Source: Flavobacterium sp.
Lineage (GTDB): Bacteria; Bacteroidota; Bacteroidia; Flavobacteriales; Flavobacteriaceae
Direction: 5' to 3'
DNA: 64,000 bases
Assembly: GCF_024710485.1 (NCBI RefSeq)
Contig: NZ_JANJUQ010000030.1
Span: forward strand, 62,001-126,000
Shown here: in pieces, positions 720 to 45,832 of the stretch
How the letters are laid out: each line of letters starts with the position of its first letter
Numbering within the stretch: position 1 is the first letter of the stretch
Notes under the pieces: generated by a model
Told to the model about the DNA's origin: nothing
The model's database searches: none
The model's input: the letters and a program-made list of their open reading frames with translations, nothing else
Position numbers and translations under genes: made by a program

Positions 720-751
720 AAAAAGGCTTGTCGTGAATGACAAGCCTTTTT
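720..751 (-). terminator. Intrinsic terminator / attenuator in the trpE leader
   Basis: Minus strand AAAAAGGCTTGTC-ATTCAC-GACAAGCCTTTTTTT: 13-bp stem followed by a U tract, ~20 nt before the trpE start. Confidence 0.85.
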
Positions 752-790
752 GGATATTTAGATTTTAAAATATACTCATAGCGGACTAAT

Positions 791-847
791 TCACGACGTT
801 CGACGTAAAGTATTCCACCACCAAGTATTGTTTAAAATGTTGTTCAT
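791..847 (-). CDS. trpL: trp operon leader peptide MNNILNNTWWWNTLRRTS
   Basis: ATG AAC AAC ATT TTA AAC AAT ACT TGG TGG TGG AAT ACT TTA CGT CGA ACG TCG TGA; three consecutive Trp codons just upstream of the attenuator and trpE. Confidence 0.88.
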   Translation of the reverse strand: MNNILNNTWWWNTLRRTS

Positions 848-863
848 TTGTTATTGTTTTGAA

Positions 864-895
864 CAAAATTAGTCAAGTGCTTTTGAATTTCCAAA
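864..895 (-). promoter_or_regulatory. Bacteroidetes-type promoter of the trp leader
   Basis: Minus strand TTTG - 20 nt - TAATTTTG (TAnnTTTG), ~16 nt before the leader peptide ATG. Confidence 0.6.
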
Positions 896-45709: not shown

Positions 45710-45723
45710 GACAAGATGGTTTC

Positions 45724-45832
45724 ATAGCCCCGATGGAAGCGGCATCCTTTTTTACCGGTTCTCGATACATCCTGAAATAGTACACCGGAACTGACGGTAA
45801 AAAAGATACAGCGGACAGCGGGAAATAGCTCC
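45724..45832 (+). ncRNA. flavo-1-like structured intergenic element
   Basis: ATAGCCCCGATGGAAGCGGCATCCTTTTTTACCG...CGGTAAAAAAGATACAGCGGACAGCGGGAAATAGCTCC; perfect 10-bp TTTTTTACCG/CGGTAAAAAA stem plus basal AGC/GCU and CCCG/CGGG pairings; family name recalled from memory, strand uncertain. Confidence 0.55.

Follow-up and report, generated by a model that had tools for sequence, protein, structure and literature searches.

In the trpL leader of Escherichia coli, Trp codons are combined with a 1:2 hairpin, a 2:3 antiterminator and a 3:4 terminator, and in phyla other than the Bacteroidota T-box elements and TRAP are known regulators of trp genes. Within the Bacteroidota, the Bacteroid-trp family (Rfam RF01692) was entered in Table 1 of Weinberg et al. 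2010 (PMC2864571), and according to Rochat et al. 2019 (PMC6414381) such an element lies before the trp operon of Flavobacterium psychrophilum, where attenuation was already proposed. A 2021 transcriptome study of the same species (PMC9723704) similarly mentions strong clues to leader-peptide attenuation before amino-acid operons.

Here we analyzed a 64,000-nucleotide stretch of Flavobacterium sp. DNA, referred to throughout as the window, in which a sequence-only reading had noticed a tryptophan attenuator upstream of trpE. That reading of the locus stands, although its membership in a catalogued family had not been recognised: the leader is a good example of RF01692 and not a new kind of switch. 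We consider it highly likely that it is a ribosome-mediated transcription attenuator of trpEGDCFBA belonging to this family, an interpretation supported by its anatomy, its RF01692 membership, conservation in hundreds of genomes and models of the growing transcript.

Results

Family identity and distribution of the leader

On the minus strand, cmscan assigns positions 867-739 to RF01692 with a score of 75.2 bits, where the gathering score is 49, and an E value of 1.3e-7 for the whole 64 kb; the match is full-length (model positions 1-131) rather than truncated. One copy was found in the genome, and its context is that of the family, with an open reading frame (ORF) carrying a WWW run before trpEGDCFBA in a Bacteroidota genome; its nearest relatives are nearly all from Flavobacterium. 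Rfam matches below threshold (rimP, Phe_leader, Thr_leader, FopS and others) were treated as chance. Elsewhere in the window, a Flavo-1 RNA (RF01705) was matched on the plus strand at 45722-45829 with 71.4 bits; PMC9723704 doubts that Flavo-1 matches represent one structural element, as they are found on either transcript strand.

The leader was matched in 278 of 400 Flavobacteriaceae genomes, 243 of them above the cut-off, and about a third of the 400 sampled genomes had no match under filters that were strict and with some genomes being incomplete. A phylum-wide sample gave 31 matches among 297 genomes, nearly all of them in Flavobacteriaceae, with one from the same order and one from the same class outside the family. 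The conservation counts reported below refer to 165 distinct leaders that were extracted.

Promoter and leader peptide

A Bacteroidetes-type promoter of the form TTTG-N20-TAATTTTG had been claimed for this locus, and direct reading of the sequence places it at 895-864 (minus strand), with the -33 TTTG at 895-892 and the -7 box TAATTTTG at 871-864 fitting the TAnnTTTG pattern. In 163 of the 165 leaders this pattern stands within 60 nt on the 5' side of the leader ATG, mostly with a TTG spacing of 19-20. In F. psychrophilum the TAnnTTTG box spans -12 to -5 (PMC9723704), which predicts a transcription start near 859. The distance from box to leader ATG is bimodal, being 4-5 nt in 23 leaders and 16-18 nt in 101, with 16 nt in this window. 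Judging by the same box position (PMC9723704), leaders of the short-distance class should be leaderless mRNAs, having the leader-peptide ATG as first codon, a type that is otherwise rare (5.5% of F. psychrophilum mRNAs).

The leader peptide ORF MNNILNNTWWWNTLRRTS extends from 847 to 791 on the minus strand, with its ATG at 847-845 and a TGA stop at 793-791, and the 18 codons with three tandem TGG that had been described are borne out. The three UGG control codons occupy 823-815, a position supported by both sequence and conservation, and UGG UGG UGG is kept in 164 of the 165 distinct leaders.

Alternative RNA pairings

In the MFE fold, one long sequestering (anti-antiterminator) hairpin at about 838-762 (minus strand) encloses both the Trp codons and segment 2, and the terminator comes after it; this architecture agrees with that of the Rfam consensus. 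Folding yielded -46.8 kcal/mol compared with -20.9 +/- 3.1 kcal/mol for dinucleotide shuffles (z = -8.3, 0 of 200). A competing hairpin of TTTACG with CGTGAA had been postulated just after the Trp codons, and this pairing is present with one G-U pair, but it is merely the tip of the far longer hairpin, where UUUACG 809-804 pairs with CGUGAA 795-790. Within that tip, 40 diverse leaders show a compensatory change at pair 809:790, with C-G in 21 of them and U-A in 9.

Segment 2, the antiterminator strand GUCGUGAAU (797-789, minus strand), contains the leader stop codon, and its core UCGUGA occurs in 158 of the 165 leaders. Its partner AUUCACGAC (738-730, minus strand) comprises the terminator loop and the first 3 nt of the 3' arm, with the loop UCAC found in 156 of 165. 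The exact complementarity noticed earlier between GTCGTGAAT (797-789) and ATTCACGAC (738-730) was confirmed from the sequence. The two outer pairs of this 9-bp antiterminator (789-790 with 737-738) were rejected as a family feature, being kept in only 14 of 35 and 5 of 27 leaders, and therefore only the UCGUGA:UCACGA core was counted as such. In the fold of this window, the antiterminator adds three more pairs with the terminator 5' arm.

A contiguous helix of at least 6 bp between segment 2 and the loop is found in 159 of the 165 leaders, and on average 4.6% of trials with dinucleotide-shuffled segments attain the observed helix length. In 125 leaders the ORF ends at the UGA of UCGUGA, in 15 this UGA lies in another frame, and in 18 it is located past an earlier stop; because the motif survives in all three situations, its conservation points to selection on RNA pairing rather than on the peptide. 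The antiterminator core is nearly invariant, leaving almost no compensatory covariation there within the family. In a class-level relative (L118), the loop is ACCU and the segment AGGU, which by inspection of the sequences would pair. In an order-level relative (L137), the sequence that follows WWW, CAAAGUCUU, has its complement in the 5' arm of the terminator, AAGACUUUG, and not in the loop, an E. coli-like layout in a leader with a weak Rfam score (49.8 bits).

Terminator and trp operon

The intrinsic terminator (751-718, minus strand) has arms at 751-739 and 732-720, a T run at 726-718 and, as had been proposed, a 13-bp stem and the loop ATTCAC (738-733), to which both sequence and fold attest. 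It is placed between the leader ORF and the first structural gene, as in classical trp attenuators. Comparison of relatives' leaders corroborated the earlier reading of the locus, with WWW in 164 of 165 and compensated changes both at 809:790 and in the terminator stem (G-C/A-U, G-C/C-G and C-G/U-A in the 40-leader alignment).

Downstream, the N-terminal part of trpE covers 717-1 (minus strand; Pfam Anth_synt_I_N, 3.7e-30) and runs beyond the window edge, and a complete trpE-G-D-C-F-B-A operon, seen in sequence L111, directly follows the leader. There are two candidate trpE starts, of which ATG 717 abuts the terminator T run and ATG 699 is further in; the true start is probably 699 and not 717, because TrpE homology in most relatives starts at residue 3-7. 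On the same strand just past trpA (L111 49-3144) are genes for a TetR-like regulator, a TolC-like outer membrane protein and an EmrA-like efflux adaptor.

Folding of the growing transcript

Transcripts were folded at increasing length, and the stretch covered by a ribosome at the Trp or stop codons was masked. The ribosome footprint was assumed to extend about 11-14 nt downstream (PMC4833913 has a cover of at most 12 nt on that side), and the model depends on this footprint and on an assumed polymerase exit length. When the ribosome sits on the second Trp codon of this leader, the modelled antiterminator probability stays at 0.99-1.0 up to an exposure of 7 nt of the 3' arm, and the terminator prevails once 8-9 nt are exposed. 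When the ribosome is absent or sits at the stop codon, the terminator already has a probability of at least 0.95 from 4 nt exposed.

Of the 165 leaders, 133 show takeover at 8-9 nt with a stalled ribosome, and 164 show it at 3-4 nt with the ribosome at the stop codon. With no ribosome, takeover spreads from 3 to 9 nt over all leaders, and the sequestering hairpin alone is therefore less uniform in its effect than a ribosome at the stop. Shuffling the sequence from the Trp codons to the terminator abolishes the delay, with stalled takeover mostly at 4 nt rather than 8-9. In computation, then, antiterminator and terminator are mutually exclusive and dependent on ribosome position.

Once the 3' arm is fully exposed, equilibrium folding favours the terminator despite a stalled ribosome in 146 of the 165 leaders, and a thermodynamic switch was rejected on these grounds; since the terminator nearly always wins at full exposure, the switch must be kinetic. 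RNA polymerase holds about 8 or more nt of RNA. In these models the exposure difference of 4-5 nt coincides with the point at which the T run does or does not bring about termination, and a short antiterminator is enough, because at that moment only the loop and the upper 3' arm lie outside the polymerase. The sequence-only reading had cautioned that its antiterminator invades only the loop and the top of the stem; the core pairing is indeed limited to the loop and the top of the 3' arm, but the weakness seen in this is largely resolved by the growing-transcript folds.

Discussion

The leader very probably switches the tryptophan-making genes on when tryptophan is low. With ample charged tRNA-Trp, the ribosome would pass UGG UGG UGG to the UGA and cover segment 2, leaving the terminator (751-720) without a competitor, so that it would form before trpE. 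If the ribosome were absent, the long hairpin would hide segment 2 and the terminator would form too. When Trp-tRNA is scarce, a ribosome stalled on the UGG run would open up the long hairpin on its 5' side, and the freed segment 2, GUCGUGAAU, could capture the emerging terminator loop and the top of its 3' arm, AUUCACGAC, together with a few 5'-arm pairs, delaying the terminator beyond the T run and allowing the operon to be transcribed. We infer the ribosome stalling, the coupling of transcription to translation and the Trp-dependent read-through from the family and from the folds.

Other explanations of the same arrangement were weighed. That the leader peptide might be a nascent arrest peptide, which like TnaC would sense free tryptophan rather than charged tRNA through codon stalling, is brought to mind by the LRQTS and LRRTS endings common among relatives, but the peptide after WWW varies freely in both sequence and length (CFRN, NFSNLRS, SNRNSKFVN, NNLRQTS and others) while the UCGUGA RNA motif is kept in every frame, and stalling at WWW is exactly the position that frees segment 2 in the folds, making this a very improbable account. 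It is equally hard to believe that the terminator is the mere end of the yceI-like gene upstream of the leader (959-1525, Pfam PF04264) or a constitutive brake, with the WWW ORF being incidental. The terminator is indeed strong in every state after full exposure. However, the yceI-like gene has its own terminator (AACCTCGA at 931-924 and TCGAGGTT at 917-910, then a T run), and the one before trpE therefore does not serve it; the promoter sits between this gene and the leader, and an incidental ORF would not lead one to expect WWW kept in 164 and segment 2 in 158 of 165 leaders.

Control by a T-box or a TRAP-like protein site, as exerted on trp genes in other phyla, is already contradicted by the sequence and is the least credible of the alternatives, with next to no probability. 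No T-box match was obtained in the region by Rfam search even at E 5, and the leader (867-718) has only two (G/U)AG triplets compared with the 11 described for the TRAP site of Bacillus subtilis (PMC4027176).

Ribosome-mediated attenuation is thus the reading we retain, and the leader, which is readily understood in mechanistic terms, comes close to a textbook case of an already catalogued family. We put forward more tentatively, as a proposal that may well prove wrong, that it works as a purely kinetic attenuator in which segment 2, around the leader stop, captures the terminator loop, and that a subset of Flavobacteriaceae (those with the -7 box 4-5 nt before the ATG) translates the leader peptide from leaderless mRNAs. 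If true, this reading would define a mechanistic sub-type within RF01692 that is not spelled out in the sources consulted. The analysis yields a testable kinetic model for the short antiterminator of Bacteroid-trp, a point that the Rfam consensus leaves open. The case also represents a real attenuator recovered from raw sequence without tools, in what is otherwise ordinary gene regulation.

Compared with the RF01692 model, the leader has in common the ORF with Trp codons, the sequestering hairpin, the terminator 5' arm and the position before trp genes; the Rfam model ends after the terminator 5' arm, without the antiterminator pairing, which is described in the present analysis. The trp leader of F. 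psychrophilum, a different species, belongs to the same family and precedes the same type of operon, with attenuation proposed by the authors (PMC6414381; PMC9723704), and no detailed alternative-pairing model was found in the available parts of that literature. With E. coli trpL the leader shares the Trp codons and the 1:2, 2:3, 3:4 logic, although sequence homology is not claimed. In contrast to trpL, the Flavobacterium leader has its stop codon within segment 2 and a longer sequestering hairpin that takes in the Trp codons. The target of segment 2 differs as well, being mainly the 5' arm of the terminator in trpL but the terminator loop and the uppermost part of the 3' arm here.
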